DNA from: Hymenobacter sp. YIM 151858-1
GTDB taxonomy: Bacteria; Bacteroidota; Bacteroidia; Cytophagales; Hymenobacteraceae
Direction of reading: 5' to 3'
Assembly: GCF_025979705.1 (NCBI RefSeq)
Contig: NZ_CP110136.1
Coordinates: 2,666,001 to 2,730,000, forward strand
DNA length: 64,000 nt
Below are positions 1 to 64,000 of the stretch, in pieces. A program made the position numbers and the translations under genes. Numbering within the stretch: the stretch's first letter is position 1; every line of letters begins with the position of its first letter. The notes under the pieces were generated by a model that saw only the letters and a program-made list of their open reading frames with translations, was not told the DNA's origin and did not search any database.

Positions 1-1060
1 CGTGCGCAGCGGCGTGGATATTTTGCTGGCCACGCCGGGCCGCCTGATGGAGCTGTACTCCAAAGGCGACTTAGTGCTGAAGGAGCTGAAAACCCTGGTG
101 CTCGACGAGGCCGACAAGATGATGGACATGGGCTTTATGCCCCAGATTCGCCGCTTGCTCGAAATTATTCCGCGGAAGCGCCAGAACATGCTGTTCTCGG
201 CCACCATGCCGCCCAAGGTGGAGGAGCTGAGCGCCGAGTTTCTGGAGTTTCCGGTGAAAATTGAGGTGACGCCTTCGGCCGCGCCCGCCTCCACGGTGCA
301 GCAAACGCTGTATGAGGTGCCCAATTTTCTCACTAAGATTCACTTGCTCGAGCACTTGGTGGCCGATACGGAGGTATTCAACCGCGTCATCATTTTTGCC
401 CGCTCCAAGGAAACCGCCGACAACGTGTTCCACTTTCTGCACCGCAAGATCGAGGGCGAATCGCGGGTAATTCACGGCAACAAAGGCCAAAACACGCGCC
501 TGAACTCCATGGATGCCTTCCGCGAGGGCGGCGTGCGTTTTCTGGTGGCTACTGATGTAGCGGCGCGCGGCATTGATATTCCGGAGGTCAGCCACGTTAT
601 CAACTTCGATGTGCCGGTGGTGTACGACGACTACGTGCACCGCATTGGCCGCACGGGCCGGGCCGAGCGCACGGGCGCCGCCGTTACGTTTGCTACGCCG
701 GCCGAAATGCCGCACGTGCAGCGCATCGAGGAGCTGATGCGCCAACCCATTCCGCAGCAGCCCCTGCCGGCCGAGGTAAGCATTGCCGAAACGCCTTTTG
801 AAGAAGCGCAGCGCATGGCGCGCGAGCTGGATACCCTGCGCCGCAAAGCCGACCCGGAGTACAAAGGCGCCTTCCATGAAAAACAGGAATGGCTGAAAAC
901 CGGCGTTACCATCGACAAGCGCACCGGCAAAACCTACGATGGCCCGCAACGCAGCAAAAAGGGCAGCAAAATAAACCCATCGAAAGGCCGGGCCTCCTCG
1001 CCTACCGCCAAAGCCAGCAAAGCCGCGGCCGCTAAAAACCGGCAGGCGCGCCGCAAGTAG
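1..1060 (+). CDS. DEAD-box ATP-dependent RNA helicase, RhlE-like (5' end outside window)
   Basis: This is the C-terminal 352 residues or so of an RNA helicase that unwinds RNA duplexes with ATP, probably in ribosome assembly or RNA turnover. Visible motifs in order are TPGR (Ib), DEAD (II, seen as LDEADKMMDMGF), SAT (III), the second RecA domain with VATDVAARGIDIP (V) and HRIGRTGR (VI). The N-terminal Q motif and Walker A (motif I) lie left of the window, so the true start is not visible. The last 70 residues are a basic Lys/Ala/Ser-rich tail, as in RhlE-type helicases of Bacteroidota, likely for RNA contact. A strong hairpin terminator follows. The paralog class (RhlE versus another DEAD group) is inferred from the tail and is less certain than the family. 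Confidence 0.93.
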   Translation, partial: VRSGVDILLATPGRLMELYSKGDLVLKELKTLVLDEADKMMDMGFMPQIRRLLEIIPRKRQNMLFSATMPPKVEELSAEFLEFPVKIEVTPSAAPASTVQQTLYEVPNFLTKIHLLEHLVADTEVFNRVIIFARSKETADNVFHFLHRKIEGESRVIHGNKGQNTRLNSMDAFREGGVRFLVATDVAARGIDIPEVSHVINFDVPVVYDDYVHRIGRTGRAERTGAAVTFATPAEMPHVQRIEELMRQPIPQQPLPAEVSIAETPFEEAQRMARELDTLRRKADPEYKGAFHEKQEWLKTGVTIDKRTGKTYDGPQRSKKGSKINPSKGRASSPTAKASKAAAAKNRQARRK

Positions 1061-1075
1061 CACCCACAAACGTAG

Positions 1076-1119
1076 CCGAAGCTCCGCTCAGCCAAAAGCC
1101 CGAGCGGAGCTTCGGCATT
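1076..1119 (+). terminator. Intrinsic terminator after helicase gene
   Basis: A perfect 14-bp stem (CCGAAGCTCCGCTC at 1076-1089 with GAGCGGAGCTTCGG at 1102-1115) encloses a 12-base loop and is followed by CATTT. It sits 16 bases after the helicase stop and just before the convergent M43 protease gene, so it may serve both strands. Confidence 0.75.
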
Positions 1120-1144
1120 TGCGGGCCCTAGGTGGCCGATGGGC

Positions 1145-3316: not shown

Positions 3317-3823
3317 GGGTCAAATCATTTGGGCAATCACCTAGGGCGCAACCGATTAAGACGCATGACAGAGCTCTGCTGCAGGCAATAACTATCCGTG
3401 CTGCCCGCGGCAACCGCGAGCAAGGCGTGGGCAGCCCGAAAAAGGAGGCACGGGCGCTGGGCAAATAGCGCCAGCCTACCAAGGGTTATGGCACGAGCAA
3501 GTCTCTGTCAGGCATTCGCTTATACTCTACACACGAGCCCGTTGCCAATGCTTCATCAGCACAACAGCACCTAGGGCTCAGCACGACAGACGATGGCTCC
3601 TGGCGAGAACCACGTACCAGCCTATTGGTGGAAAGCCGGCCGGACCAAGCAGCAGAACCAAAAAGCTCGACTGCCTTTATTATGACTTAAATAACAATAA
3701 ATTATACATAATCAACAAACAAAAAGTACGCATTTGTTAAGGGCTCCATCCGTTATGCCCCAAAAGCAATGCGGCCCAATGCGCAATTGCATTGGGCCGC
3801 AGCTGATGGCAAAGTGAGCAAGC
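3317..3823. other. Intergenic region without a gene
   Basis: These 507 bases lie upstream of the leftward M43 gene and downstream of the leftward membrane-protein gene. They hold an AT-rich patch near 3675-3735, two CCTAGG palindromes (3340 and 3570) and the hairpin at 3771-3800. I see no convincing reading frame; short frames here have no recognisable features. No clear TAnnTTTG promoter box for the protease gene was found. Confidence 0.6.
3771..3800 (-). terminator. Intrinsic terminator of the leftward membrane-protein gene
   Basis: A perfect 12-bp stem (GCGGCCCAATGC with GCATTGGGCCGC) closes a 6-base loop. Read leftward it is followed by ATTGCTTTTGGGG, a short U-rich run, 24 bases past the end of the gene at 3824. 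Confidence 0.7.
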
Positions 3824-4276
3824 TCAGCGGTGGAAAATGGGCAAATGGCTGAACTTGATGGTAAGAAACGTGAAGGCAGCCCCCCAGAACATGGCGCTCC
3901 AGAGCATGTGCAGCAAGATATGCCGGCGCTTTACGCCCAGCAGCGTGGCAATAACGGTTCCGCCGATGGGCGTAAAGAGCACCGGCGTCAGGAAAGCAAT
4001 GCCGCCGATGCCGAAGCGCCGAAACACGCGCACGATTTGCCGGGCCCTAGGTGTAAATACCGGCTTGTGGCGCAGGCGGCGGCGGCGCTGCAAGTGGGCC
4101 ACAAACACCCGCCCCAGGCCCGAAAACACCAGCACGCTCGTCATCATGCCGGCTACGGTGAGCACCCAGGTGGGTACAAACGACAGCCCCGCGGCGGCAC
4201 CGGCCAGAGGCCCACCGAAGAATTTAACCATGCTCAGCAGGAAAACGGACGCGTATTTGACGGCGTGCGGCATCAC
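3824..4276 (-). CDS. Small integral membrane protein, unassigned
   Basis: The 150-residue protein has about four hydrophobic segments (near residues 8-30, 36-58, 90-115 and 125-145), separated by a very basic loop (HLQRRRRLRHK, about 62-72). The segment PVLFTPIGGTVIATLLGVKRR has the Pro/Gly-rich re-entrant look seen in DedA/SNARE-associated and small multidrug-export proteins, but I cannot assign it to either. It is the last gene before a terminator, and the upp gene begins 105 bases upstream in the same direction. The start is the first of two adjacent Met codons; either could be used. Confidence 0.6.
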   Translation of the reverse strand: MMPHAVKYASVFLLSMVKFFGGPLAGAAAGLSFVPTWVLTVAGMMTSVLVFSGLGRVFVAHLQRRRRLRHKPVFTPRARQIVRVFRRFGIGGIAFLTPVLFTPIGGTVIATLLGVKRRHILLHMLWSAMFWGAAFTFLTIKFSHLPIFHR

Positions 4277-4381
4277 GGGCGTTCAGACGTTGATCGTTCT
4301 AAGCAAAGCAAGATACTTACCCGGGTAGCTTAGGCGGCAAAAATACGGTTGTACGGCAACTCAAACCGGCTGGCAGCCGCC

Positions 4382-5020: not shown

Positions 5021-5034
5021 TCGGCCGCTTTGGG

Positions 5035-5979: not shown

Positions 5980-5983
5980 AGCA

Positions 5984-5991: not shown

Positions 5992-6056
5992 GCGGCTACC
6001 AAGCCCCCTTGCACCTAGGGCCGTAGCAGCAAGCGCATTGCCTTTTCTGAACGCAA

Positions 6057-6898: not shown

Positions 6899-7237
6899 AT
6901 GCCCACCGCCAAACCCTGCACCGACTACCTGCTGCCCCTGCGCGATGCGATGGACGTGCTGGGCGGCAAGTGGAAAATCCCGGTTATCATGCTGCTCTCG
7001 CTGCGCGAACGGCGCTTCAAGGAAATTCAGCGCGAATTGGGCGTAGCAGCCAAGGTGCTATCGAAAGAGCTGAAAGACCTGGAAAGCCACGAGCTGGTGC
7101 GGCGCAAGGTGTTTGATACCGTGCCCCTGGCCGTTGAGTACTCGCTTACCGACTACGGCCGCACGCTGGAGAAACTAATCGGCGAAATCCGCGACTGGGG
7201 CCTGCACCACCGCGAGCGGATACTCGAGCGCACCTAG
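6899..7237 (+). CDS. HxlR-family winged-helix transcriptional regulator
   Basis: The 112-residue protein carries the family hallmarks: an early Cys (CTDYLLPLRDAMDVLGGKWK), the recognition-helix region RFKEIQRELGVAAKVLSKEL, and the wing (VPLAVEYSLTDYGRTLEKLI). HxlR proteins are dimeric repressors or activators that often sense electrophiles or redox state through a conserved Cys near the N-terminus; Cys7 here is in that position. It probably controls the divergent yceI gene and itself through the palindrome upstream. The TAG stop codon is embedded in a CCTAGG palindrome (7233-7238). Confidence 0.93.
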   Translation: MPTAKPCTDYLLPLRDAMDVLGGKWKIPVIMLLSLRERRFKEIQRELGVAAKVLSKELKDLESHELVRRKVFDTVPLAVEYSLTDYGRTLEKLIGEIRDWGLHHRERILERT

Positions 7238-7249
7238 GGCACGCACAGC

Positions 7250-12707: not shown

Positions 12708-12737
12708 CGCCTAGGTCCGACCCCTAGGCGTTTTTTT
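12708..12737 (+). terminator. Intrinsic terminator whose stem is built from two CCTAGG sites
   Basis: CGCCTAGG (12708-12715) pairs with CCTAGGCG (12723-12730) across a 7-base loop and is followed by seven T. Each arm contains the palindrome CCTAGG that is abundant in this window. Confidence 0.88.
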
Positions 12738-31800: not shown

Positions 31801-32732
31801 CAGCGCCCGCCCAAACCAATTTCTGCGCCACCGACAACACCCCGCTCAAGCTGCCCAACGCCGCCTACTGGAGCGGGCGCGGCGTGCAAGGCCCGTCGTT
31901 TCAGGGCTTCACCTTCAACCCGGCCGTAGCCGGCCCCGGGCAACACACGCTCACGTACGTAACCTACAACGGCCCCTGCGAAACCCGCGGCAGCGTCACG
32001 ATGTCGGTAGGCAACCCGCCCGCCATTGCCTTGCCGCCCGATACGCTGCTGTGCCCGGGCTCCGTGCAGGCCTTCCGCCTGCGCGGCCTGCCCCTAGGTG
32101 GTACGTGGTCGGGGCAGCATGTAACAGCCGCCGGGGTATTCACGCCCCCGGCGGGTTTTGCGGGCTCCGTAGCTCTTACCTACACGGTTAATAATGGCGG
32201 CTGCATCAGCAGTGCCACGCGCCGTGTGGGCGTGGCCCCCATGCCAGCTTTTGGGCCTAGGTGGCAAGCCACCAATTGCCCCACCGACCGCCAGGCTCCG
32301 CTGCAGGTCCAGTTTCGCGGGGTTGATGTAGCCGATGTGCAGTGGGACTTCGGCGACGGCAGCACCGCCACCGGCCTAAATCCGGCACACATTTACGCCC
32401 AGCCTGGCCGCTACCAGCCGAAGGTAGTGATGTACTATAACAGCCGCCTCTGCCGCACCGAGCTTCAGCTTGCTCCCATCGAGGTGCTCGAAACCAAACC
32501 CATCCCAAACATCATCACGCCCAACGCCGACGACAAGAACGACGTGTTTGAGGTATCGGCCGGCTGCCCACCTGGCTTGCAGGTGTTTTCGCGCTGGGGC
32601 CAGAAAGTGTACGACGATGCCGCTTACCGCAACAACTGGGGCGGTGGCAACCAGCCAGCGGGCACCTACTATTACCTGTTGCGCTACGTTGATGGGCGCA
32701 CGGTGAAAGGCTGGCTCGAAATTCAGCGTTGA
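28830..32732 (+). CDS. Giant secreted SBBP/PKD protein with gliding-type (type B) T9SS C-terminal domain, paralog 2
   Basis: The 1300-residue protein has the architecture of its upstream neighbour: signal peptide (ends LLAAPA, near 30), EFIPNKGQW domain, SBBP propeller region (about 250-750), Ig-like repeats, a PKD domain (WDFGDGSTATGLNPAHIYA, near 1170) and a type B sorting domain (IPNIITPNADDKNDVFE to the end). It has five Ig-like GG(T/I)WSG...LTY units where the first paralog has three, which accounts for most of the length difference. Long DNA tracts are nearly identical between the two genes (for example 25785-25895 with 29570-29680), suggesting a recent duplication or gene conversion. 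Likely a surface adhesin used in gliding or attachment. Confidence 0.87.
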   Translation: MSSSAWHRSLVACWLFLLIAAAAGSPLLAAPAPAQHIEFIPNKGQWPQPVHYMAPLVHGRLFLEATGWTYALAEPIDPHTKSATSGQAQLRAHAVRMEFVGARPETQLQPATLTGEVRNYLLGADPKNWASNVGSYRELRYLGVWPGIDVRLYENKQGLFEYDFELAPGADASLIRQRYTGAEQLSLGEGGTLQIRTSLGTITELAPRAWQLGPGGERRPVSCRYTLRGTDVSFALGRYDRARPLVIDPTVVFSTFTGATADNWGFTATYDPQGNMYSGGIAFGLGYPVTAGAYSTTFSGNIDIAIIKYNTATTGPASRVWATYLGGSSSDYPQSLVVNSRGELVILSTTGSANYPTTPDAFDRTFAGGPSVSPYGFNDPLYTIAQGTDLAITSLSASGSALVGSTYLGGTSVEGLNMRTGMVAELMRNYGDQFRGDVLVDANDNIYIASNSSSPDFPTRNNFQAARGAGLDAVVCKLTPSLNNLLWSSYLGGGNPDAAYSLQLDAAGRLYVCGGTTSVNFPTTPGALQTTHRGDVDGFVVRISADGSKMERSTLLGTAQYDQTYFVQLDTNGDVYLLGQSLGQYPVTAGRYANANGRQFIHKLNADLTTTSFSTVFGAGRPTIDISPTAFLVDQCNRIYVSGWGGSTNASQGNGYTTNLPTTPTAVQPTTDGSDFYLMQLAEGATHLEYATFFGGSSSDHVDGGTSRFDRRGFVYHAVCACGGGNATFPIPPGAGTYSTRNGYSNCNNAAFKFDFEPQRAVVGPDMTVCLSAGAIPLVGSPAGGIWSGPGVSGSVATGYVFNPTAVGLGQSTLTYKVVNNFCQSQTTQNVTVVPTPTATFQPLPFNEFCVNSPAVSLAALPAGGTFSGPGVSGSTFSPATAGPGTHTITYKYTVTGCSVTATQQVSVLTANAGPDFNLCLPAAPVRLGGSPAGGTWAGQYVTGSAATGYFFAPPATLTGNVALTYTIATASGCTSSSTLQASVFAAAVVAAPAQTNFCATDNTPLKLPNAAYWSGRGVQGPSFQGFTFNPAVAGPGQHTLTYVTYNGPCETRGSVTMSVGNPPAIALPPDTLLCPGSVQAFRLRGLPLGGTWSGQHVTAAGVFTPPAGFAGSVALTYTVNNGGCISSATRRVGVAPMPAFGPRWQATNCPTDRQAPLQVQFRGVDVADVQWDFGDGSTATGLNPAHIYAQPGRYQPKVVMYYNSRLCRTELQLAPIEVLETKPIPNIITPNADDKNDVFEVSAGCPPGLQVFSRWGQKVYDDAAYRNNWGGGNQPAGTYYYLLRYVDGRTVKGWLEIQR

Positions 32733-32764
32733 CGGAGCTCCTTGCGTTTCGGCTTCGGAAGTTG

Positions 32765-32772
32765 TATATTTG
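32765..32772 (+). promoter_or_regulatory. Promoter of the rimP-nusA operon
   Basis: TATATTTG is a perfect -7 element, with a TTG-containing partner 20 bases upstream (32742-32744). The start of transcription would lie just before the leader hairpin. Confidence 0.6.
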
Positions 32773-32793
32773 CAGTAGTTAATCGTAATCAGA

Positions 32794-32823
32794 GGAGGGG
32801 ACGCGTAGTCCCCTCTTTCTTTT
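32794..32823 (+). promoter_or_regulatory. Leader attenuator hairpin before rimP
   Basis: GAGGGGAC (32795-32802) pairs perfectly with GTCCCCTC (32808-32815) around GCGTA and is followed by TTTCTTTT. It has the form of an intrinsic terminator but sits between the promoter and the rimP ATG (32837), so it should reduce or regulate read-through. NusA, encoded in this operon, affects pausing and termination and could control its own synthesis here; that is inference. Confidence 0.7.
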
Positions 32824-32836
32824 ACTACCCTTTTCC

Positions 32837-33310
32837 ATGAGCTTCGAACGCACCCGCATACAGCAAATGCTGGAGGCCAGCCTGCCCGGCCCCGAGTACT
32901 TTGTGGTAGGCCTGACGGTGAGCGACACGGCTGTCCGTCCGAAAATCACGGCTACCATCGACGGCGACCAAGGTATCGGCATCGATGAGCTTGGCTCCAT
33001 CACGCGTCGTCTTACCCGCCAGATCGACGAAGCTTACGGCGAAGATGCTGCCTACTCATTGGAAGTCACTTCGCCCGGCGCCGATCAGCCCTTGGTGAGC
33101 CCGCGCCAGTATGCCCGCCACACCGGCCGCACGCTTAGCCTGAAAATGACCGACGGCACCGAAAAAACCGGCACCCTGGAAGAAGCCACCGCCGAAGGCG
33201 TTGTGGTGAGCGAGGTGGTAAAGGAAAAGAACAAGAAAAAGACTCTTGAGCCTGCGCTGGTACCGTTTGCGGACATTCAGGAGGCAAAAGTCGTCATCTC
33301 ATTTAAGTAA
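32837..33310 (+). CDS. rimP: Ribosome maturation factor RimP
   Basis: RimP helps assemble the 30S ribosomal subunit. The 157-residue protein shows the family blocks GIGIDELGSITRRLTRQID and YSLEVTSPGADQPLVSPRQYARHTGR (compare family LEVSSPGLDRPL), then a C-terminal SH3-like segment (about 90-157). It is first in the rimP-nusA-infB order conserved across bacteria, located 101 bases upstream of nusA, and is preceded by a promoter and terminator-like leader. Confidence 0.95.
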   Translation: MSFERTRIQQMLEASLPGPEYFVVGLTVSDTAVRPKITATIDGDQGIGIDELGSITRRLTRQIDEAYGEDAAYSLEVTSPGADQPLVSPRQYARHTGRTLSLKMTDGTEKTGTLEEATAEGVVVSEVVKEKNKKKTLEPALVPFADIQEAKVVISFK

Positions 33311-33411
33311 ATTACCGACTGGTTTACTGTTGCACAGATAGTTAGCATCTTGCCTGGGTATCAGGCACCTGCTCGCTGCCGGCAACAGTACGGCATTCAA
33401 ACACCACCCAT

Positions 33412-34704
33412 ATGAACACGCTCAACCTCATCGAGTCGTTCTCGGAGTTTGCCAAGTTCAAGAACATCGACCGTCCTACCATGATGAGCATCCTCGAAGA
33501 GGTGTTCCGGACGATGATTCGTAAGAAGTACAACGACGACTCCAACTTCGACGTCATCATCAACCCCGACAACGGCGACTTAGAAATTTGGCGTAACCGC
33601 GAAATCGTGGACGACGAATCCGAGGACATCTGGGACCACGACAAAATTCCGCTGTCGGAAGCCCAGAAGATCGAGCCGGACTTTGAGGTAGGCGAAGAAG
33701 TATCGGAACAGGTGAAGCTGGAAGAGTTTGGCCGCCGTGCCGTGCTTATGGCCCGCCAAACGCTGATTCAGCGCATCAAAGACCTGGAGCGCGACAACCT
33801 GTACCAGAAGTACAAGGACATGGTTGGCGAAATCATCGCCGGCGAAGTGTACCAGGTATGGGGCCGCGAAACGCTGGTGCTTGATCAGGAAGAAAACGAG
33901 CTAAGCCTGCCCAAAACGGAGCAAATCCCCAAGGACCGCTACCGCAAGGGCGACACCATTCGGGCGGTGGTGCACCGCGTCGATGTCATCAACGGTGCTC
34001 CCAAGATTATCCTGTCGCGTGCGGCCCCGGCTTTCCTGGAGCGCCTCATGGAGCAGGAAGTGCCCGAAATCTTCGATGGCCTGATTACCATCAAGAACAT
34101 CGTGCGCGAACCCGGCGAGCGTGCCAAAGTAGCCGTTGAAAGCTACGACGACCGCATCGACCCGGTAGGCGCCTGCGTGGGCATGAAAGGCTCGCGTATT
34201 CACGCCGTGGTGCGCGAACTCGAAAACGAGAACATCGACATTATCAACTACACCGACAACCTCGAGCTGTACATTCAGCGTGCGTTGTCGCCGGCCAAAA
34301 TTTCATCGATGAAAATCAATGAACAAACCGGCCGTGTTTCGGTGTTCTTGAAACCAGACCAAGTGTCGCTGGCAATCGGCCGGGGCGGTGCCAACATCAA
34401 ACTGGCCTCCCGCCTTGTGGGCATGGAAATCGACGTGTTCCGCGAAGCCGACTCTTACGAAGAGGATATTGCGCTGGAGGAATTCAGCGACGAGATTGAC
34501 CAGTGGATTATCGATGAGTTGAAGAAAATCGGCCTCGACACGGGCCGTGCCGTATTGGCTGTGAACAAAGCCGATATCGTACGCCGTACCGAACTGGAAG
34601 AGGAGAACGTAGAAGACGTTTTCCGCGTCATCCAGGCCGAATTCGACGGCGAGGACGAAGCTGCCGAGCCTGCTGAGGGCGAAGCAGCAGAACCCAACGC
34701 GTAA
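33412..34704 (+). CDS. nusA: Transcription termination/antitermination factor NusA
   Basis: NusA binds RNA polymerase and nascent RNA to control pausing, termination and antitermination. The 430-residue protein has the N-terminal RNAP-binding domain (about 1-125), the S1 domain (about 130-200, with GEIIAGEVYQVWGRETLVL), then two KH domains including IDPVGACVGMKGSRI and the second-KH VSLAIGRGGANIKLASRL. The acidic tail (EEENVEDVF... to EAAEPNA) lacks the extra AR repeats of Escherichia coli NusA, as usual outside Gammaproteobacteria. It lies between rimP and infB. Confidence 0.97.
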   Translation: MNTLNLIESFSEFAKFKNIDRPTMMSILEEVFRTMIRKKYNDDSNFDVIINPDNGDLEIWRNREIVDDESEDIWDHDKIPLSEAQKIEPDFEVGEEVSEQVKLEEFGRRAVLMARQTLIQRIKDLERDNLYQKYKDMVGEIIAGEVYQVWGRETLVLDQEENELSLPKTEQIPKDRYRKGDTIRAVVHRVDVINGAPKIILSRAAPAFLERLMEQEVPEIFDGLITIKNIVREPGERAKVAVESYDDRIDPVGACVGMKGSRIHAVVRELENENIDIINYTDNLELYIQRALSPAKISSMKINEQTGRVSVFLKPDQVSLAIGRGGANIKLASRLVGMEIDVFREADSYEEDIALEEFSDEIDQWIIDELKKIGLDTGRAVLAVNKADIVRRTELEEENVEDVFRVIQAEFDGEDEAAEPAEGEAAEPNA

Positions 34705-34756
34705 CCGGCGGACCGGCCTCCAACGTAGGCGACCGACACCCGCTTCGGATATCATC

Positions 34757-34792
34757 GGCGGAAAGCCTGTCCGTACTGGCAGGTTTTCCGCC
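34757..34792 (+). terminator. Hairpin between nusA and infB
   Basis: GGCGGAAA pairs with TTTTCCGCC and an inner CCTG with CAGG, giving a long imperfect stem after nusA. Only a weak T-rich tail follows. It may attenuate read-through to infB or process the transcript. Confidence 0.55.
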
Positions 34793-34812
34793 GTTTGGCA
34801 ATAATTAAATCG

Positions 34813-34820
34813 TACTTTTG
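34813..34820 (+). promoter_or_regulatory. Internal promoter box for infB
   Basis: TACTTTTG matches the -7 consensus 33 bases before the infB ATG at 34854. It also covers an alternative upstream start (34818), making that start unlikely. A TTTG lies 15 bases upstream, closer than the usual spacing. Confidence 0.5.
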
Positions 34821-34853
34821 CAACAAACTACGAGTATCGCACGCGACCAAAGA

Positions 34854-37800
34854 ATGGCGGAAGCAGCAAGCAAACGACTGAAACAAGCGGCCACGGACCT
34901 GAACGTCGGGACCCACACGATTGTGGATTTTCTCGCGACGAAGGGAATTTCTGTTGAAAATAAACCCACCACCAAGCTGTCGGCCGATCAGGTTGCACTG
35001 CTGAACAAAGAGTTTGCGTCGTCGGCTCAGGATAAAGCCGAGGCTACCAAACGAAGCCAGTCGCTGCGTCATACTGAGCTTGAGCAAGCCTCCCAAGCCA
35101 AGGAAGCTGCCAAGGTGGTAACGACCCCAAAGCCAGCCGAACCGGCTGCCCCGGCTCCGCAACCGGCTGCCGCTCCGGCAGCAGAAGCTAAGCCCGCAGC
35201 TCCGGCCCCGCAGCCCGCTCCCGCTCCTAGCGCGGACAACGGCCGCCCCGTACCCGGCCTTAAGGTGTTGGGTAAAATCGAACTCGATGCGAAAGGGCGT
35301 CCGGTACCGCCAAAGCCTGCGCAACCTGCTCCAGTGCCAGCCCCGGCTGCGGCCCCTGCAGCTACTACTGTTCAGCCCGCTCCGGCACCTGCGCCCGCAC
35401 CGGCTCCCAAGCCTGCACCGGCACCGCAACCCGCACCTGTAGCACAGCAGCCAGTTGCGCCTAAGTCTGCGCCAGCCCCTGCCGCCACGCCGGCACCGGT
35501 AGCTGCGCCCCAGGCTGCAGCGTCGGCACCGGCTTCTGCTCCAGCAGCCCCGGCTCAGCCTGTTGCTCCGGCGCCAGCGCCAGCAGCTCCGGTTGCCGAA
35601 GCTAAGCCTGCTGCGCCGGTAGCGGCTGCCCCCGCTCCTACCCCGGCTCCGGCCGAGCCAACTCCTGAGCAAGGCACTATCATCGCTCGCGCCGATCAGC
35701 TGAAAGGCCTGACGGTGCTAGGCAAGATTGAGTTGCCCACCGACGCTTCGCGTCGTGGTGGTGGCAACCGTGGTGCCCGCCCGGTAGCCTCTTCGGATGT
35801 GCGCAAGGCAGGCATTGGCGATAAGAAAAAGCGCCAGCGTATTACTACGCCCGGTGGACAGCAGCAAGGCCCCGGCCAGGGCGGCAATCAGCAACAAGGC
35901 GGCAACCGCCCCGGCGGTACCGGCAACGACCGCCCGACGCGTCCGGCCAATCAGGGCAACCGCCCGGGTGGGCCCGGCGGCCGCGACAACCGCGGTGGCA
36001 ACCCCAACCGTCCGGCTCCTGCTGTATCGCCCGAACAGAGCGACAAGCAGATTCAGGACCAGATCAAGGCTACGCTGGCTCGTTTGAGCGGTGGCCGTGG
36101 TGGCAATCAGCAAAACCGCGCTAAGTACCGCCGCGATAAACGCGCTGGTATTGCCGAAGCGCAAGAGCTGGCCCGTCAGCAAAGCGAGCTGGCCTCGAAG
36201 ACGCTGAAGTTGACCGAGTTCATCTCGGCCAATGATTTGGCTTCGCTGATGAACGCCTCGGTGAACGACGTTATCAAGGTTTGCTTGAACATGGGCATGT
36301 TCGTGTCCATCAACCAGCGCCTCGATGCCGAAGCCATTACGGTTATTGCCGATGAGTTTGGCTACGATGTAGAATTCCTGTCGGCTGAAGACGAGCAGGA
36401 TGTGGCCATCGTTGACGAAGACGATCCGGAAGCACTGCAGGATCGTGCTCCGATTGTGACCATCATGGGTCACGTCGACCACGGTAAAACCTCGCTGCTC
36501 GACTACATCCGCAATGCGCAGGTAGCCAAAGGCGAAGCCGGTGGTATCACGCAGCACATCGGTGCTTACGAAGTAACCACCGACTCGGGCCGCAAAATCA
36601 CCTTCCTCGATACCCCTGGTCACGAAGCGTTTACCGCTATGCGTGCCCGCGGTGCCAAGGTAACCGACATTGCCATCATCGTGGTGGCTGCCGACGACTC
36701 GGTGATGCCGCAGACGAAGGAAGCCATTAACCACGCGCAAGCTGCCGGTGTACCCATCGTGATTGCGCTGAACAAGATTGATAAGCCGGGTGCAAACCCC
36801 GACAAAGTCCGCGAGGAACTGTCGGCCATCAACATTCTGGTTGAAGAATGGGGTGGTAAGTACCAGTCGCAGGAGGTATCGGCCAAAACCGGTGCTGGCA
36901 TCAGCGACCTACTCGAGAAGGTTCTGCTGGAAGCCGAACTGCTTGAGCTGAAGGCCAACCCCGACCGTCGGGCTGTGGGCTCGGTTATCGAAGCTTCGCT
37001 CGACAAAGGCCGTGGCTACGTAACCACCATTCTGGTGCAAACGGGTACACTGAACGTAGGCGACATCGTGTTGGCTGGTCCGCACTATGGCCGCGTGAAG
37101 GCTATGACCGACCACCGCGGCAAGAAGATGAAATCGGCTGGTCCTTCGACTCCGGTTCAGCTCCTGGGTTTGCAGGGCGCGCCGCAAGCCGGCGACAAGG
37201 TTGTGGCAATGGAAACGGAGCGCGAAGCCCGCGAAATTGCTACCCAGCGCCTGCAGCTGCAGCGCGAGCAGTCGATGCGCACGAAAAAGCACATTACGCT
37301 CGACGAGATTGGCCGTCGTTTGGCTATCGGTTCGTTCAAAGAGCTCAACATCATTGTTAAGGGCGACGTGGACGGCTCGGTGGAAGCACTGTCGGACTCG
37401 CTGCTGAAGCTCTCGACCGGCGAAGTGGCCGTAAACATCCTCTCGAAGGGTGTAGGCGCCATTTCCGAATCGGACGTATTGCTGGCCTCGGCTTCGGATG
37501 CTATCATCATCGGTTTCCAGGTGCGCCCGTCGCTGGGTGCCCGCAAACTGGCCGAGCAGGAGCAAATTGACATCCGTCTCTACTCGATCATCTACAACGC
37601 CATCAACGAGGTGAAGGATGCGATGGAAGGCATGCTGGCCCCGACGGTGCAGGAGGTGACGGTAGCTACGGTGGAGGTACGCCAGGTGTTCAACATCACG
37701 AAAGTGGGTACGATTGCCGGCTGTATGGTTACCGACGGCACCATCGCGCGCAACACCAAAGTGCGTGTGGTACGCGACGGCATCGTGCAGCACACCGGAG

Positions 37801-37949
37801 CAATCCTGGCCCTCAAGCGCTTCAAGGACGATGCGTCGGAAGTGCGCCAAGGCTACGAATGCGGTATCTCGATCAAAAACTTCGATGACCTACGCGAAGG
37901 CGACATTATCGAAGGCTTCGAGGAGAAAGAAGTTAAGCGTACGCTGTAA
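34854..37949 (+). CDS. infB: Translation initiation factor IF-2
   Basis: IF-2 is the GTPase that brings initiator tRNA to the ribosome. From ATG 34854 it has 1031 residues, long for the family because of an Ala/Pro/Gln-rich, low-complexity N-terminal region (about 85-430) followed by Gly/Asn/Arg-rich stretches. An IF2-N helix-turn-helix-like domain ([20 protein letters not shown]) opens the protein and a second occurs near 430-500. The G domain has GHVDHGKT (539-546), [15 protein letters not shown] (G3) and NKIDKP (G4), followed by IF-2 domains II-IV. It has its own promoter box and ends at a strong terminator. Confidence 0.96.
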
Positions 37950-37976
37950 GCCAACGGCTTACTACCATACCGAAGA

Positions 37977-38004
37977 CCCCAGCCCGCAACGGCTGGGGTT
38001 TTTT
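37977..38004 (+). terminator. Intrinsic terminator after infB
   Basis: CCCCAGCC pairs with GGCTGGGG around CGCAAC and is followed by TTTTTT. It ends the rimP-nusA-infB unit. Confidence 0.9.
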
Positions 38005-38096
38005 GTTGCGGTACAGGCAACGCCTTCGCGCTTATATGACTCTATGTGCCCGGTGTGTTGTATCTTATGAGTGCGCCACCCACACTTGCTTAGCAA

Positions 38097-41096
38097 ATGA
38101 AATACCTGTTACTCGGCGTATACCTGTGCTTATCGACAACCTGGGCCGCTGCGGCACCTAGGCCCGGTGTATTGGTGGTGGAAGACACCGCGCGAGTGTA
38201 CCAGCTGCGCACGCAAGGCTCTGTACTGGCCACGAGCCAGCCCTTGAGCCTCGCTCAGGTACGCTCGGCCAGCTGGCACAACCGGTTTGCGCCAGCTACC
38301 CAGGCTGCCGGGGCGCCAACCGCAACTGAGCTGTGGTGGCGCTTTAACATTACTTCCGTGGCTCATCCGGCGACGCACTGGGTGCTGAGCACGAACACGG
38401 AGTACATGGACGGGCTGGATGTGTACGTGGTGCCGGCCAATGGGCAAGTGCAGCATCAGCGCATGAGCACGGCCTTGCCGCACAAGCAAACCCATGCCCT
38501 GCGTACGCGCTACTTTAACCTAGGGCTGAGTTTGCCACCTGGGCAAGTTGTAACGGTGTACCTCAGAGCTCCGGCTCAACAAGTAGTGTACCCCACCCTG
38601 GCGGAGCAGGCGCATTTACTACAGCAATACCGCGAAGCCGACTGGGCAATGGGCCCTTATTTCGGCATTTTGCTGGCGCTGCTGGCCTACAACCTGCTCC
38701 TGTATGTGTCCGTCCGCGACAGAAGCTATTTGCTGTACGTGCTCTACGTAGGCTTTTTTGCCGCGCTGCAGTTTGATATGACGGGTTATTGGCGGCAAGT
38801 GTGGCCCAACAACTGGTCGGGTTTTGCCCTGGATATGCGTCAGAACCTGGTGCTGGCCTGCACCATCTTCTTCGGCACGCTCACGGCTCGGGCTTTTCTG
38901 GATTCGTGGCGCCTGTTGCCGCGCTTTGATAAAGTTCTGAAGCTTACGTTGCTGGTGGCATGGCTGCCTTTGGCCAGCGGCTTCTTCGCCAACCCCAACC
39001 ACGCAATTTGGTGGCAAGCCCTGCCCGCCCTCTGGACGTGCGTAGTGCTTTTGGCGGCTGGGGTGCTGGTGTTGCGCACCGGCTACCGCCCAGCCAGGTA
39101 CTACATGGCTGGCTGGACGCTCCTGCTCGTGGCGGTGGCCAATTTTTACCTAGGGCTGCTGGGCATTACGCCCCGTACCGGATTTTGGGCCGCGCACGGC
39201 GTGCACGTAGCCTCTGCCTTGGAGATGTTGCTGCTGTCGTTTGGCTTTGCCGACCGCATCAACCTGGCCAAGCACGACAAAGAATTGGCGCAGGAGGCGG
39301 CCATGCATGCGCTGCAGCAAAAAGAAGCGGCCCAAAGCCAAGCACTGGCCGCCCTACGCGAAACCCAACGTGCGCAGGAAGTAGCGCTGGTATTATCGCG
39401 CGAAAAGGAGGAATTGCAGGAGCGCACCAACCACGAGTTGGCCGAACGTGCGGCGGAGCTGCAACATGCTTACCAAGAGCTGCACGAAAGCATCCGCACG
39501 TCGCACCACTTGCAGGAGCTTGATGAACTCAAAACCAAGTTCTTCACCAATATTTCGCACGAGCTGCGCACACCGCTTACCCTTATCATCAGCCCGCTGG
39601 AGCAACTACTCAGCGAGGCACAACAACACCCCCGGCTGCCCGCTCCGCCCGAGTACGCGCTGATGCTGCGCAACGCCCGCCGGCTGCTGCAGCTCATCAA
39701 TCAGTTGCTCGATATTGCTCGGCTGGAAGCAGGCCAGATGCACCTAGGCGCCGCGCCCGCCGACATGGTGCGCACGGTACGAACAGGGGTATCGTCGTTC
39801 GAGTCGTTGGCGGTGTCGCATGGAGTGGCCTTGCGTTTCGAAACAGAACTGGAAAGCCTGGAAGTGTACCTCGATGCCGACCAGTTCGACAAAATCCTGT
39901 ACAACTTGCTTGGTAACGCATTCAAGTTTACGCCCGCCGGTGGCGAGGTACTCGTGAGCGTGGGCCAGCAAGCCGGGCGGGCAGTGCTGCGCGTGCAGGA
40001 TACCGGCGTGGGCATACCCGCCGAGCACGTACCGCTTATCTTCGACCGGTTTCATCAGGTTGATGACACCCACACCCGCCGGCACGAAGGCTCGGGCATT
40101 GGGCTGGCACTGGTAAAAGAATTGGTAGCCCTCCACCACGGCAACATTCGCGTGCTGAGCGCCCTAGGTGAGGGAACCACCTTTGTGGTGGAGCTGCCGC
40201 TGGGCAAGGCCCACTTGCAGCCCAACGAGCTACGCGCCGCAGCCGCTGCATCTGCCACCGGTTTGGCCGCGCCCCTCCCCGATTTTATCGACCAACCCGA
40301 TACCAACTTGCCGGTGGCGCCTGCCGATGCGCGCCCGTTGGTGCTGGTGGTAGAAGACAACCCCGAAGTACGCGACTACATCCGTACGTGCCTGGCCGCC
40401 GAGTTTAGGGTGCGTACGGCCAACGACGGTGCTCACGGACTGGCCTTGCTGAAGGACCTTGAGCCGGACTTGGTTGTTTCCGATCTGATGATGCCGCAGC
40501 TGGATGGGCTTGAGCTATGCCGGCGCCTGCGCGCAGACGAGCACACTTCCCATATTCCGGTGATACTGCTCACGGCCCGGGCGGGCGACGAAGCTCGCCT
40601 GACCAGCTTTGGCCTGGGTGCCGATGAGTACCTGACGAAACCTTTTCATCCGGAGGAGCTGCGCGTGCGCATTCATAACCTGGTGCAGCAGCGCCGGCTG
40701 TTGCGGCAGCGCTTTGGCCGCGAGGTTACGCTGCAGCCGCGCGACATCAGCATCACCTCAGCCGACGAAACGTTCCTCAACCGTGCCATGGGCGTGGTGG
40801 AACAACACATGGCCGATACCGGGTTCAGCGTAGAGCGGTTTGCCGACGAAATGGCCATGAGCCGTGTGCAGCTGCACCGCAAGCTGAAAGCCCTTACCGA
40901 CCAATCCACCTCGGAGTTTGTGCGCACGGTTCGGTTGCGCCGGGCGGCGGTGCTGCTGCAGGCCCACGCCGGCAACGTGGCCGAAGTGGCGGAGGCGGTG
41001 GGGTTTGCCAACCTTTCCTACTTCAGCAAATGCTTCCGCGAGCTGTACCAACAGTCGCCATCGGAATACGCGGCGCAGGCAATTACCACCACCTGA
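38097..41096 (+). CDS. Hybrid two-component sensor/regulator: 7TMR-DISM sensor, histidine kinase, receiver and AraC-type DNA-binding domain
   Basis: The 999-residue protein joins a full phosphorelay to a DNA-binding output. A signal sequence (about 1-22) is followed by a periplasmic 7TMR-DISMED2-like beta domain (about 35-165) and seven transmembrane segments (about 185-390). Then come a coiled coil, the HisKA domain with FFTNISHELRTPLT (His488), the HATPase domain with a DTGVGIP glycine box and GSGIGLALVKEL, a receiver domain with phospho-acceptor in LVVSDLMMP (Asp796) and T/K residues, and an AraC HTH (about 895-995, VAEVAEAVGFANLSYFSKCFRE). This resembles Bacteroidota hybrid two-component systems, but with a 7TMR-DISM sensor instead of the usual beta-propeller/Y_Y_Y sensor. 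Ligand and targets are unknown; no adjacent target operon is obvious. Confidence 0.92.
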   Translation: MKYLLLGVYLCLSTTWAAAAPRPGVLVVEDTARVYQLRTQGSVLATSQPLSLAQVRSASWHNRFAPATQAAGAPTATELWWRFNITSVAHPATHWVLSTNTEYMDGLDVYVVPANGQVQHQRMSTALPHKQTHALRTRYFNLGLSLPPGQVVTVYLRAPAQQVVYPTLAEQAHLLQQYREADWAMGPYFGILLALLAYNLLLYVSVRDRSYLLYVLYVGFFAALQFDMTGYWRQVWPNNWSGFALDMRQNLVLACTIFFGTLTARAFLDSWRLLPRFDKVLKLTLLVAWLPLASGFFANPNHAIWWQALPALWTCVVLLAAGVLVLRTGYRPARYYMAGWTLLLVAVANFYLGLLGITPRTGFWAAHGVHVASALEMLLLSFGFADRINLAKHDKELAQEAAMHALQQKEAAQSQALAALRETQRAQEVALVLSREKEELQERTNHELAERAAELQHAYQELHESIRTSHHLQELDELKTKFFTNISHELRTPLTLIISPLEQLLSEAQQHPRLPAPPEYALMLRNARRLLQLINQLLDIARLEAGQMHLGAAPADMVRTVRTGVSSFESLAVSHGVALRFETELESLEVYLDADQFDKILYNLLGNAFKFTPAGGEVLVSVGQQAGRAVLRVQDTGVGIPAEHVPLIFDRFHQVDDTHTRRHEGSGIGLALVKELVALHHGNIRVLSALGEGTTFVVELPLGKAHLQPNELRAAAAASATGLAAPLPDFIDQPDTNLPVAPADARPLVLVVEDNPEVRDYIRTCLAAEFRVRTANDGAHGLALLKDLEPDLVVSDLMMPQLDGLELCRRLRADEHTSHIPVILLTARAGDEARLTSFGLGADEYLTKPFHPEELRVRIHNLVQQRRLLRQRFGREVTLQPRDISITSADETFLNRAMGVVEQHMADTGFSVERFADEMAMSRVQLHRKLKALTDQSTSEFVRTVRLRRAAVLLQAHAGNVAEVAEAVGFANLSYFSKCFRELYQQSPSEYAAQAITTT

Positions 41097-46586: not shown

Positions 46587-46703
46587 AATTAAAAATGAAG
46601 AATTAAAAATTAAACGTGAGCACAGGCAGGCACCCAGTCTAGGCCAAGCGGTCAGCCGGGCGCTCTGCTGATTCTTCATTTTTAATTTTTAATTTTTAAT
46701 TCC
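46587..46703. repeat. AT-rich palindromic repeat downstream of enoyl-CoA hydratase
   Basis: AATTAAAAATGAAGAAT (46587-46603) and its exact complement (46671-46687) flank a GC-rich centre; extra TTTTTAATT units extend the right arm. Its AT-rich arms contrast with the GC-rich genome. It occupies the whole gap before the next gene. Confidence 0.85.
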
Positions 46704-59512: not shown

Positions 59513-59537
59513 ACCAAACTTGCGGCATTCATTTACT

Positions 59538-59545
59538 TAATTTTG
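59538..59545 (+). promoter_or_regulatory. TAnnTTTG promoter box for maeB
   Basis: TAATTTTG matches the consensus and is followed by a GC-rich imperfect hairpin and TTTTCGTTTT (59564-59596) in the leader before ATG 59612. The hairpin may be an attenuator. Confidence 0.5.
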
Positions 59546-59611
59546 TCGCAACTTGCTTTCGGGCGCTGCCTTTAGCAGGCGGCGCCTTTTCGTTTTCGCT
59601 CAAACCGGTTT

Positions 59612-61882: not shown

Positions 61883-61910
61883 GACTGGCTCTAGCGCCAC
61901 CAAAGAACTT

Positions 61911-62084
61911 CCTAGGTCGTGTGGACACATAAGCTACAGGGGCGTCATGCTGAGCGAAGTCGAAGCATCTCTACCGCTGACGGCCGGTAGTAACTTCTAT
62001 CTGACGAAGCGGGAGAGATGCTTCGACAAGCTCAGCATGACGGGCTGCGGTATACTTTGCTTTTAGTGTCCACACAGCCCTAGG
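61911..62084. mobile_element. MITE-like palindromic element with nested inverted repeats
   Basis: The outer arms are CCTAGGTCGTGTGGACAC (61911-61928) and, on the other strand, CCTAGG-GCT-GTGTGGACAC, giving about 18-base terminal inverted repeats. Inside lies a second palindrome (61942-62044) whose arms contain TCATGCTGAGC and CGAAGCATCTC and match the repeat at 22086-22190. No gene is inside. It sits between the maeB stop and the terminator that follows. Confidence 0.75.
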
Positions 62085-62086
62085 TC

Positions 62087-62120
62087 GCCCAGAGCCTCAC
62101 CGGCTCTGGGCGTTTTTTTT
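62087..62120 (+). terminator. Intrinsic terminator of maeB
   Basis: GCCCAGAGCC pairs perfectly with GGCTCTGGGC around TCACC and is followed by G and eight T. It lies just beyond the MITE-like element, about 205 bases after maeB. Confidence 0.9.
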
Positions 62121-62154
62121 ATGCCGCCCCCCCCAGGGCATCGGCAACCCTGCC

Positions 62155-62193
62155 CCTAGGTGCCGGCGCCTCCGGCACCGCGCGGCACCTAGG
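62155..62193. repeat. CCTAGGTGCC/GGCACCTAGG inverted pair
   Basis: CCTAGGTGCC (62155-62164) and GGCACCTAGG (62184-62193) are perfect 10-base complements around 19 bases. The same arm sequence makes the inverted repeat at 28605-28644. Confidence 0.75.
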
Positions 62194-62307
62194 CGAATTG
62201 TTTGGCCGGTTTTACTGTTGACCTGAGACCCGAACGCCGCCGCGCGGCCGCGTTCGGAATGTCGGCTTAACTTAGCCCGAGTTACCTGTCATCACACCGC
62301 TGCCTAC

Positions 62308-62913
62308 ATGATTGCCTACCTCGACGGTAAGATTGTCTACAAAGACCCTACGCAAGTCATCATCGACGTTCAGGGCGTCGGATACGAAGTAAAGATTTCG
62401 CTGGCTACCTATTCCAAGCTGCCGGCCGAGGGCGAGAAAATCAACCTCTTCACCTACCACCACATCAAGGAAGACGCGCAGGCGCTCTACGGTTTCCTCG
62501 ATCCGAACGAGAAAGCGCTGTTCATGCACCTGATTTCGGTGTCGGGCATTGGGCCGGGCACGGGCATCGTGATTGTGTCGTCGATGTCGGTGGGCGAAAT
62601 CCGCCAGGCCATTATTCAGGAAGACGTGCGCTCGATTCAGGCCATCAAGGGCGTGGGGCCAAAAACGGCGCAGCGCATCGTGCTCGATTTGCGGGACCGG
62701 CTCCGCAAAGACGAACTATTGGCCAAAGCCGGCGTAGAAACCGTGCCTTTGGCGAAGCAACACAATACCAACCGCTCCGAAGCGTTAGCCGCACTGGTTA
62801 CCCTGGGCTTTGCGCGGGCGGCTGCCGAGAAAACGCTCGACCAGATTCAGCAACGACACGGCAACGACCTGAGCGTGGAGGATTTAATTAAATTTGCTCT
62901 TAAGTCGAATTAG
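62308..62913 (+). CDS. ruvA: Holliday junction branch migration protein RuvA
   Basis: RuvA binds Holliday junctions and recruits the RuvB motor. The 201-residue protein has the N-terminal OB-fold (about 1-65, AYLDGKIVYKDPTQVIIDVQGVGYEV), two helix-hairpin-helix motifs (ISVSGIGPGTGIVIVSS and IKGVGPKTAQRIVLDL, about 71-125), and the C-terminal RuvB-interacting helix domain (about 150-198, SEALAALVTLGFARAAAEKTL). ruvB is elsewhere. It lies upstream of sprA, as in other Bacteroidota. Confidence 0.97.
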   Translation: MIAYLDGKIVYKDPTQVIIDVQGVGYEVKISLATYSKLPAEGEKINLFTYHHIKEDAQALYGFLDPNEKALFMHLISVSGIGPGTGIVIVSSMSVGEIRQAIIQEDVRSIQAIKGVGPKTAQRIVLDLRDRLRKDELLAKAGVETVPLAKQHNTNRSEALAALVTLGFARAAAEKTLDQIQQRHGNDLSVEDLIKFALKSN

Positions 62914-62921
62914 TTTTCCCT

Positions 62922-62943
62922 GGGCCTTCGGGCCCTTTTGTTT
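62922..62943 (+). terminator. Small hairpin after ruvA
   Basis: GGGCC and GGCCC flank a TTCG tetraloop and are followed by TTTTGTTT. It lies 9 bases after the ruvA stop and immediately before the likely sprA start; read-through into sprA is probable because no sprA promoter is seen. Confidence 0.6.
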
Positions 62944-62952
62944 CGCCTTTGC

Positions 62953-64000
62953 TTGACACCTGGTACTAAGAAGTACGTTGCCGCTTTTTCCTCTGTTGCC
63001 GTAGCCTTCCTGCTGACCTGGTGGTCGCAGGCTGGGCCGGCGCGGAATCGCACGTTCGAGTTTTCGCAACTGTGGAGCTGGTTGCGGGTGCAGCCGCACG
63101 GGCCTTTGCTCGCCGGCCTGCCCGACACCACGCGCCCCGCCGCGGCCGACACCGCACGCTACCGCAGCAGCCGGCGCCCCAAAGTGGCCCCGCGCGACCG
63201 GCAGGGCAACTTCCTGACGGAACGGCGCCGCTCGCCCCTGGTGCTGCCCTTGCCCGACAACGTGAAGCCCCAGGTTACGGTGAGCGACTCGCTCGACTAC
63301 GTGGACGTGGAGGAAAACATCGGTACCGACCTCGACTACCGCGACCCGGCCCGGTTATCGTTCCGGGAGTTTGAGCGCCTGCAGCAGCAGCAAGCCATTC
63401 GTAATTACTTCCGGACCAAATCGGAGGGCGGCGTGGCCGGCGAGGCGGGCAATGCCACGGCGGCCAAGCGCCTGATTCCGAAAATTGCGCTGGCTCCGGG
63501 CCTAGGTCGCATTTTCGGCGGCGAGTTCATCGACATCCGGCCCAACGGCGCGGCCACCATTTCCCTAGGTTGGCGCCAGAACTTCAACGACAACCCGGCC
63601 CTGACGCTGCGCCAGCGCCGCAACGGCGACTTCAACTTTCAGCAAAACTTCAATCTGAACCTCACGGGCCAGATTGGCGACAAGCTGCGCCTGCTGTTCA
63701 ACTACGACACGCGCGCGGCGTTCGACTTCGAAAACCAGATTAAGGCCGACTTTACGGGCTACGACACCGACATCATCCGCAAAGTGGAGATGGGTAACGT
63801 GTCGTTGCCGCTGAACAACTCGTTGGTGCAAGGCGGGCAAAACATGTTCGGCATCAAAACGCAGCTGCAGTTTGGCAAGTTGAGCGTAACGGGCGTGGCA
63901 GCCCAGCTGCGCGGCACCGCCGACGAGGTACGAGTGCAAAACGGCGCCCAAAGCCGCAATTTCGAAATCAAAGCCTCGCAGTACGAGGCCAACCGGCACT
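62953..64000 (+). CDS. sprA: T9SS translocon / gliding protein SprA (3' end outside window)
   Basis: The reading frame opens after ruvA, in the same frame as the ruvA stop, and runs off the right edge uninterrupted (about 349 codons). Likely start is TTG at 62953; an upstream in-frame TTG at 62938 lies within the hairpin tail. The product has a hydrophobic signal segment (about 6-24) and the SprA N-terminal pattern: FERLQQQQAIRNYFRTKS, the LGWRQNFNDNP block, EFIDIRPNG, and FGIKTQLQFGKLSVTGVAAQ with GNVSLPLNN. SprA is the giant barrel of the T9SS translocon; its full length is about 2300-2400 residues in relatives. Confidence 0.87.
   Translation, partial: MTPGTKKYVAAFSSVAVAFLLTWWSQAGPARNRTFEFSQLWSWLRVQPHGPLLAGLPDTTRPAAADTARYRSSRRPKVAPRDRQGNFLTERRRSPLVLPLPDNVKPQVTVSDSLDYVDVEENIGTDLDYRDPARLSFREFERLQQQQAIRNYFRTKSEGGVAGEAGNATAAKRLIPKIALAPGLGRIFGGEFIDIRPNGAATISLGWRQNFNDNPALTLRQRRNGDFNFQQNFNLNLTGQIGDKLRLLFNYDTRAAFDFENQIKADFTGYDTDIIRKVEMGNVSLPLNNSLVQGGQNMFGIKTQLQFGKLSVTGVAAQLRGTADEVRVQNGAQSRNFEIKASQYEANRH

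Follow-up and report, generated by a model that had tools for sequence, protein, structure and literature searches.

Why is one hexamer so frequent in the DNA of Hymenobacter sp. YIM 151858-1? The stretch analyzed here, called the window, is 64,000 nucleotides of contig NZ_CP110136.1 (positions 2,666,001 to 2,730,000). A first-pass annotation, made from the letters of the window, had estimated about 87 copies of CCTAGG in it, where base composition predicts about 21. The exact count is 87 and the recomputed expectation is 21.0. An order-3 Markov model expects about 15 (29.7 over both strands), and the Poisson probabilities of 87 copies are 5e-27 and 2e-37 for the composition and order-3 expectations, respectively. 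CCTAGG has the top z-score of all hexamers of the window under the order 1, 2 and 3 models. Under the maximal-order (order-4) model it looks ordinary (87 versus 75.1 expected), because this model takes CCTAG and CTAGG, both raised by the word, as given. The word contains 87 of the 114 CTAG of the window. In the whole genome (G000; 4,621,779 bases in 3 contigs), 5,325 CCTAGG were counted versus 75 copies of the reversed control word GGATCC. The first-pass annotation had named genome-wide counts near the Markov expectation and a similar enrichment of unrelated hexamers in the window as outcomes that would overturn its observation. Both checks were run, and the enrichment stood in the window and genome-wide. 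As described below, CCTAGG is the core of a longer, directional word, and thousands of copies of such a word may point to machinery that recognises the cell's own DNA.

The first-pass annotation treated CCTAGG as a palindrome like HIP1, the highly iterated palindrome of cyanobacteria. This does not hold for the functional unit. In 464 kb of the genome, 428 of 509 sites were ACCTAGGS or its complement, and only 8 were ACCTAGGT. The flanks are coupled: a left A pairs with a right G or C, and a left G or C pairs with a right T. This coupling, which had been overlooked, makes the unit directional and longer than the palindrome, and the word is not a palindromic octamer or hexamer of the HIP type. 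When the one-base changes at positions 1-7 of ACCTAGGG were counted in G000, none was clearly over background; the largest were ACCCAGGG (27 versus 14.8) and ACCTAGAG (7 versus 3.6). ACCTAGGT and ACCTGGGG are likewise single-base variants of ACCTAGGG. Position 8 was G in 286, C in 141, A in 39 and T in 16 cases. Thus, the unit in G000 and in its two word-rich sister species, G005 and G007, is the strict oriented octamer ACCTAGGV. Locus L065 and the plasmid loci L078 and L079 were excluded from the octamer, second-contact, covariation, placement, spacing and rich/poor rate counts, and the word-poor L084 (G007) from the octamer, second-contact, covariation, spacing and rich/poor counts.

A second, weak contact was detected upstream of the octamer. 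At 731 oriented sites of the three genomes, T was in excess at position -26 (chi-square 127, versus a maximum of 16 outside the region). The tetramer TSCC was found at -26 in 8.5% of these sites, at -27 in 3.0% and at -25 in 2.3%; the other offsets gave 0.3-1.9%. The T signal was also seen in single genomes when positions were numbered from the first C (chi-square 24 in G005, n=145; 12 in G007, n=100). TSCC occurred at 9.2% of coding (n=283) and 10.4% of intergenic sites (n=154), and no clear base-pair covariation with the proximal side was detected. Thus, the second contact is neither codon bias nor part of a hairpin, and the hairpin reading of the word was rejected. Within the window, 9 of the 80 oriented units are two-part sites. 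Word pairs 25 and 33 bp apart were in excess (5 and 6, respectively, versus 1.07 expected).

The eight genomes of the genus fall into three rich in CCTAGG (5,325, 5,678 and 6,212 copies) and five poor in it (G001, G002, G003, G004 and G006; 123 to 249 copies). G005 is Hymenobacter oligotrophus; the first 20 kb of its contig C3 is 100% identical to plasmid NZ_CP032319.1. Over 20 kb of the window, synteny gave 86% identity with G005, 84% with G007 and mostly 70-82% with the poor species where they aligned. The site-by-site and leucine-codon comparisons that follow use ungapped places of the window. The word was kept at 54 of 74 sites in G005 and 49 of 70 in G007, versus 221 of 501 and 183 of 464 sites for 16 control hexamers, one of them absent. 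By location, G005 retained the word at 37 of 50 sites in genes and at 17 of 23 sites between them, and G007 at 38 of 51 sites in genes. Among the poor species, the word was present at 0 of 37 sites in G006, 0 of 48 in G004, 0 of 29 in G002, 0 of 29 in G001 and 0 of 26 in G003, where controls were kept at 107 of 327 (G006) and 78 of 252 sites (G001).

At the word sites, the poor species carry near neighbours such as CCTGGG, CCTCGG and CCGAGG. Since these lie in ungapped alignments, the word arose in place by substitution, and a mobile mini-element was rejected on the same ground. Both transitions and transversions create sites. In genes, the source codon is mostly CTG or CTC, which becomes CTA synonymously. 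Leucine was kept at word sites in 25 of 32 (G006), 28 of 37 (G004), 19 of 23 (G002), 19 of 23 (G001) and 17 of 21 cases (G003), and at control Leu-Gly pairs in 62 of 73, 78 of 90, 53 of 60, 48 of 59 and 40 of 53 cases in the same order. Thus, amino-acid change is similar or slightly higher at the words.

The strength of the force was estimated from rates. ACCTAGGS occurs at 1.079 per kb in the three rich sisters versus 0.012 in the five poor ones, a 90-fold difference in which the poor rate is based on about 5 sites in 430 kb. One-mismatch words occur at 1.44 per kb (rich) versus 1.11 (poor). The odds ratio per position, computed from the rich and poor rates, is 23 to 109 at all seven positions. 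If the words are at equilibrium, the scaled selection or drive coefficient is about 3 to 5, which is a weak force of even strength. Rich species have fewer CCCAGG than poor ones (0.776 versus 1.137 per kb; 0.33 in G007) and about 2.2 times more TCTAGG and CTTAGG, which fits CCCAGG as a source and the other two as decay products of the word. The proposal of a maintenance process that acts on the word itself, genome-wide and much like HIP1, is supported.

With respect to genes, the intergenic excess seen by the first-pass annotation was confirmed, with different figures: it gave about 28 words in intergenic DNA that makes up about 11% of the window, and with our crude gene caller 31 of 87 words were intergenic (54 coding, 2 on an edge) at a coding fraction of 0.854. 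Its reading of the frames was correct. Of the 54 words in genes of the window, 47 are read as C|CTA|GG (Leu-Gly) and 7 as CCT|AGG. Both codons had looked rare otherwise to that annotation. CTA makes up 116 of 1,883 Leu codons, and 47 of these fall inside the word; AGG makes up 20 of 1,155 Arg codons, of which the word contains 7. The TAG stop of the gene that it called HxlR does lie inside a CCTAGG (Table 1). Placement at genome scale was analyzed on 404 kb with our own crude gene caller. There, genes contained 306 words (0.95 per kb) and the gaps between them 172 (2.11 per kb), and 28 words lay on an edge. Density was alike in convergent (2.43 per kb), tandem (2.32) and divergent gaps (2.06). 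The coding sites comprised 126 sense, 133 antisense and 47 unoriented ones, with the C|CTA|GG frame in 283 of the 306, and 28 of 148 TAG stop codons lay within the word. A transcription signal was rejected, as there was no sense bias and all gap types had like density. A replication-strand signal was also rejected: orientation was split 214 to 213 by the sign of each locus's GC skew, which is small in many loci. Spacing was near random (coefficient of variation 0.957), with short gaps mildly lacking (51 versus 75.5 below a tenth of the mean), and regular spacing was rejected.

The word was rare on the plasmid-contig stretches read, with 5 copies in 80 kb of contigs C2 and C3 of G000 and 1 in 40 kb of C2 and C3 of G005. 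The smaller G000 contigs were treated as plasmids because they partially match plasmid records. A word-poor stretch was also found in the chromosome (G000:C1, about 1,084,001-1,186,000; L253, L065, L256 and L252), with 5 CCTAGG in the 64 kb read. It is possibly a large island or prophage. Seven long frames were scanned in L065: five had no Pfam match, one carried GDSL and Big_7, and one a pectate-lyase-like domain.

To place the word within the family, it was counted in 204 genomes, of which 8 belong to this genus, 120 to genus g5 and 76 to a further four genera. The distribution is on/off. CCTAGG exceeded 5,000 copies in 9 genomes and reached 2,000 to 2,400 in 3, all 12 belonging to this genus and g5; most of the 204 genomes are without the word. 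A second word, CCTACCCC (both strands summed), exceeded 2,000 copies in 11 genomes and reached 1,000 to 1,521 in 3, all in g5. Flanks and cores differ between genomes as dialects. These are ACCTAGGV in G196, SCCTAGGS in G058, ACCTAGST in G079 and G227, and SCCTACCCC in G052, G089 and G206. Further dialects, weaker, are perhaps GGCTAGCC in G032 and GGGSCCC in G055 and G081. G000 excepted, the single-genome dialects were drawn from 20 to 130 kb each. The core CCTA is common to four dialects and absent from the GGCTAGCC and GGGSCCC words. Relatives thus have dialects that share a core, as do known DNA uptake sequences (DUS) and uptake signal sequences (USS). A distal signal was detected in other dialects as well. 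SCCTACCCC words favour a purine at +22, about 19 bp away from the word centre (chi-square 31, n=119), and G058 has a T-rich spot at about the same distance (its chi-square counts each site twice). The ACCTAGGV contact, at 29 bp, lies one helical turn beyond about 19 bp, a coincidence that may be due to chance. No word of comparable strength was found in 40 kb samples of G001, G002, G003, G004, G006, G020, G055 and G067. The weaker excesses in these samples were GGGGCCCC in G055, GCAGCTGC in G004 (50 versus 12.3, both strands) and TGCGCA in several. None of 80 loci kept from a gene scan (Hymenobacter and other Bacteroidota, 3.7 to 22 kb) had at least six CCTAGG.

The features of the window are collected in Table 1. 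The three open reading frames (ORFs) in its longest word-free stretch are presumably rimP, nusA and infB, and the lack of words there may reflect codon constraint.

Table 1. Words and two-part sites in the window (positions count from its first letter)
Feature	Position	Strand	Details
CCTAGG words	1..64000	both strands	87 words; 80 oriented units ACCTAGGV, 40 on each strand
Full two-part site, example	3543..3576	+	distal TGCC 3543-3546, word ACCTAGGG 3569-3576
CCTAGG with the TAG stop of ORF 6899-7237	7233..7238	+	the gene called HxlR by the first-pass annotation
Closest word pair	12710..12728	.	13 bp apart
Longest word-free stretch	32262..38156	.	5.9 kb; spans ORFs 32837-33310, 33412-34704, 35715-37949
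Two overlapping opposed full sites	62154..62194	.	two CCTAGG 33 bp apart
First site of the overlapping pair	ACCTAGGG 62154-62161	-	distal TGCC 62184-62187
Second site of the overlapping pair	ACCTAGGC 62187-62194	+	distal TGCC 62161-62164

Other repeats and words were noted. In the window, an AT-rich inverted repeat with 39 nt arms, 79% complementary, lies between two genes (46587-46701), and short pieces of it recur at several places in sister genomes, like a miniature mobile element. Between the sisters, the rich species have fewer GACGTC (18 in 624 kb versus 68 in 430 kb) and more CGATCG (26 in 624 kb versus 6 in 430 kb). Across the genomes, GGATCC counts ranged from 0 to 1,805, and many Hymenobacter had fewer than 10, as if the word were avoided. 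TATATA was over-represented in L133 (G009, genus g3), with 34 sites in 20 kb versus about 8 expected. Repeats like GAGATGCT and GCATCTCTAC were found in L085-L089 (G058) and L109-L110 (G055), at 24-34 per 100 kb in G058 (both strands); these are possibly a repetitive extragenic palindromic (REP)-type element.

What keeps the word? We tentatively put first the reading, which we regard as possible rather than probable, that CCTAGG is the conspicuous part of a longer, directional word by which chromosomal machinery would recognise self DNA, with biased recombination as the engine. Under this reading, ACCTAGGV and the weak contact about 26 bp upstream would be read on duplex DNA by one chromosomally inherited machinery. 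Word-bearing DNA would be preferentially accepted or retained during import and recombination, and a point mutation that completes the word would gain a raised chance of fixation. The outcome would be a word at about 1 per kb genome-wide outside recently acquired DNA. A shift in the specificity of the machinery would change the dialect of a species, and its loss would let the word decay. One machinery would stand behind all the dialects and act on self DNA, and biased fixation, not selection per site, would drive the word.

This reading is based on analogy with known systems. The DUS of Neisseriaceae is a short, strict, oriented word with thousands of copies per genome, dialects with a shared core and occurrence also within genes, according to PMC3630211. 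The Hymenobacter word agrees with this description in strictness, orientation, copy number, several dialects with a core in one family and words within genes. It differs in that no PilT was found in the 20 genomes searched and that the possible GGGSCCC words share little with the others; the likeness is one of sequence. The USS of Pasteurellaceae consists of a core and weaker flanking elements at about helical-turn distances. A core plus weaker elements at such distances is also the arrangement here, as is an over-represented oriented word at about 1 per kb; the difference is that the second contact in Hymenobacter is a weak GC-rich tetramer upstream, and that PilT was not found. Taken as a set, the traits (strict, oriented, dialects with a core in one family, thousands of copies both inside and outside genes, rare in the plasmid stretches covered, a uniform weak force) are closest to DUS, which by analogy would favour self-DNA recognition.

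Several results weigh against it. No reading factor was found among six methyltransferase families and PilT. PilT was detected in 0 of 20 genomes, so that the uptake machinery known best seems to be missing, although no search was aimed at ComEC or other competence genes. The literature, judged by title, gave nothing relevant on natural competence in Hymenobacter. The second contact is weak. G196 has the word ACCTAGGV too, but T was found in 12 of 41 of its sites and was not among the top positions, and in the ACCTAGST dialect no second contact was seen. G210, with 8,591 words, had no strict flank in 42 kb. In G007, intergenic retention was just 10 of 18 versus 26 of 60 for controls. No genome was both among the 12 rich in CCTAGG and the 14 rich in CCTACCCC; since the overlap expected by chance is about one genome, this absence is only suggestive and is weak evidence. 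Finally, if selection favoured the binding of a chromosome-organising protein to the word, an almost identical pattern would result.

That protein is the main rival, ranked below self-DNA recognition and above a methyltransferase; the first-pass annotation had named a nucleoid or repair protein among its possible roles. An abundant chromosome-organising or DNA-repair protein would bind the word, weak selection would act at thousands of sites, and specificity would diverge between species. We consider this unlikely, though a serious candidate. In favour of such a protein are the orientation of the word, its second contact on duplex DNA, the lack of a tie to transcription or replication strand, the rarity of the word in the plasmid stretches read and the scaled strength of about 3 to 5. 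However, the spacing is almost random. In addition, the word is missing from most of the 204 genomes, and in these relatives the protein would have to be dispensable or differently specific.

The first-pass annotation had also listed a DNA methylation target. According to PMC4390886, HIP1 (GCGATCGC) occurs at about 1 per kb and is lost or replaced by alternate words in some relatives, HIP and alternate HIP frequencies range from about 500 to 2,500 per Mb (section 2.3), and the alternate HIPs accompany matching methyltransferases. Because of this last point, a HIP1-type methyltransferase was the first suspect. The frequency of CCTAGG (5,325 in 4.62 Mb) is within the HIP range, and the density of about 1 per kb with loss or replacement by other words in relatives matches HIP1 and alternate HIPs as described in PMC4390886. 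It is different that the Hymenobacter unit is oriented with a second contact, and that no searched methyltransferase family occurs in all rich sisters. Six DNA-methyltransferase families were searched: PF00145 and PF01555 in 36 genomes each, PF02384 and PF02086 in 18 each, PF20473 in 40 and PF07669 in 25. None was common to G000, G005 and G007 (other families were not searched). G005 had no match to PF00145, PF01555 or PF02086, and G007 none to PF00145, PF02384, PF02086, PF20473 or PF07669. G005 carries an HsdM-type gene, in a stretch with 2 words per 16 kb, and a 1,204 aa MmeI-like frame; G007 carries a PF01555 gene of 297 aa, whose contig is 12.5 kb long and contains 2 words. These genes belong to different families. 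Judged from these searches, a methylation target of the HIP1 kind appears unlikely.

Other points bear on enzymes of the restriction type. Several dialects have as their core a hexamer of the restriction type: CCTAGG, GCTAGC and GGGCCC, which we take to be the AvrII, NheI and ApaI sites. MmeI-type (Type IIL) and Type III enzymes have oriented recognition and cut about 20 to 27 bp away, which resembles the two-part site, and G000 carries both kinds. The MmeI-type proteins drew attention, since enzymes of this type recognise a directional word and cleave about 20 bp from it. Those of G000 and G058 are 57% identical, and Eco57I-type proteins pair between G079 and G210 (54%) and between G160 and G196 (50%); the remaining pairs compared (frames of G079, G210, G196, G160, G166, G164 and G233) were below 34% over parts or gave no match. 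Some enzyme genes lie in word-rich surroundings (16 words per 12 kb in G058, 15 per 12 kb in G079, 10 per 14 kb around a Type III-like pair in G000). Thus, old-resident enzymes exist. However, these enzymes fall into three kinds, and where the dialect of a genome is known they do not track it. The homologous pairs cross dialects, with ACCTAGGV in G000 and SCCTAGGS in G058, and ACCTAGST in G079 and no strict flank in G210. In six further Eco57I regions (G210, G196, G160, G166, G164 and G233) the density is 1 to 4 words per 12 kb, like that of recently arrived DNA. The MmeI-type protein was rejected as reader of the word, being absent from G007 and present in poor genomes. Neither a Type III nor a Type IIL enzyme occurs in every word-bearing genome or in all three rich sisters; PF01555 was not found in G005, nor PF20473 in G007. 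A word made and kept by an orphan or restriction-linked methyltransferase is therefore improbable in our estimate.

Chi sites are strict, oriented 7-8-mers that are common in the chromosome. A Chi-type recombination signal read by RecBCD or AddAB is suggested by a word that is likewise strict, oriented and species-specific, with many copies in the chromosome and few in the plasmid stretches that were read. It would not account for the lack of a leading-strand bias, for a second contact 26 bp off on duplex DNA, or for five poor sisters without a comparable word in 40 kb samples. We consider it very improbable. An uptake sequence of a type IV pilus, as in Neisseriaceae and Pasteurellaceae, would have similar strictness, orientation and density and dialects with a shared core (PMC3630211). 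The 'uptake word' of the first-pass annotation is the best fit to the dialect pattern in this respect. It is weakened by the search for PilT (TIGR01420; 0 of 20 genomes, other pilus genes not searched), which gave a match in 13 of 14 control genomes, 5 of them above the cut-off, and we regard the pilus form as a most remote prospect. Finally, a by-product of base or codon composition or of chemical mutation bias, suggested by a word density that varies with coding constraint (0.95 per kb inside genes and 2.11 between them), deserves virtually no credence, since sisters of near composition (GC 0.640 versus 0.599) lack the word (0.012 per kb), the excess is seen at all seven positions, and no single mutation type suffices when transitions and transversions both make sites.

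Iterated genomic words are already known as a kind. Our literature search, by titles and abstract openings and with subscription journals mostly outside its coverage, found nothing on such a word in Bacteroidota. Returning to self-DNA recognition, we think it possible, and not far short of probable, that Hymenobacteraceae have a self-DNA system of their own. Its directional two-part word, at about 1 per kb, would be read by core machinery other than a methyltransferase or a type IV pilus. The word would come in four dialects at the least, perhaps in six or more, and closely related species would often gain, switch or lose it.

The origin and upkeep of HIP1 is an old open question, which is hard to test since HIP1 is common to most cyanobacteria. 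In Hymenobacter, the abundance of the word differs 90-fold between sisters whose sequences still align at about 70-82%, and several dialects occur within one family. Gain, switch and loss can therefore be compared directly, and with 128 genomes in two genera an association study could look for the gene behind the word. If such a system has no evident methyltransferase or pilus, neither of the two standard explanations would be needed for words of this kind.

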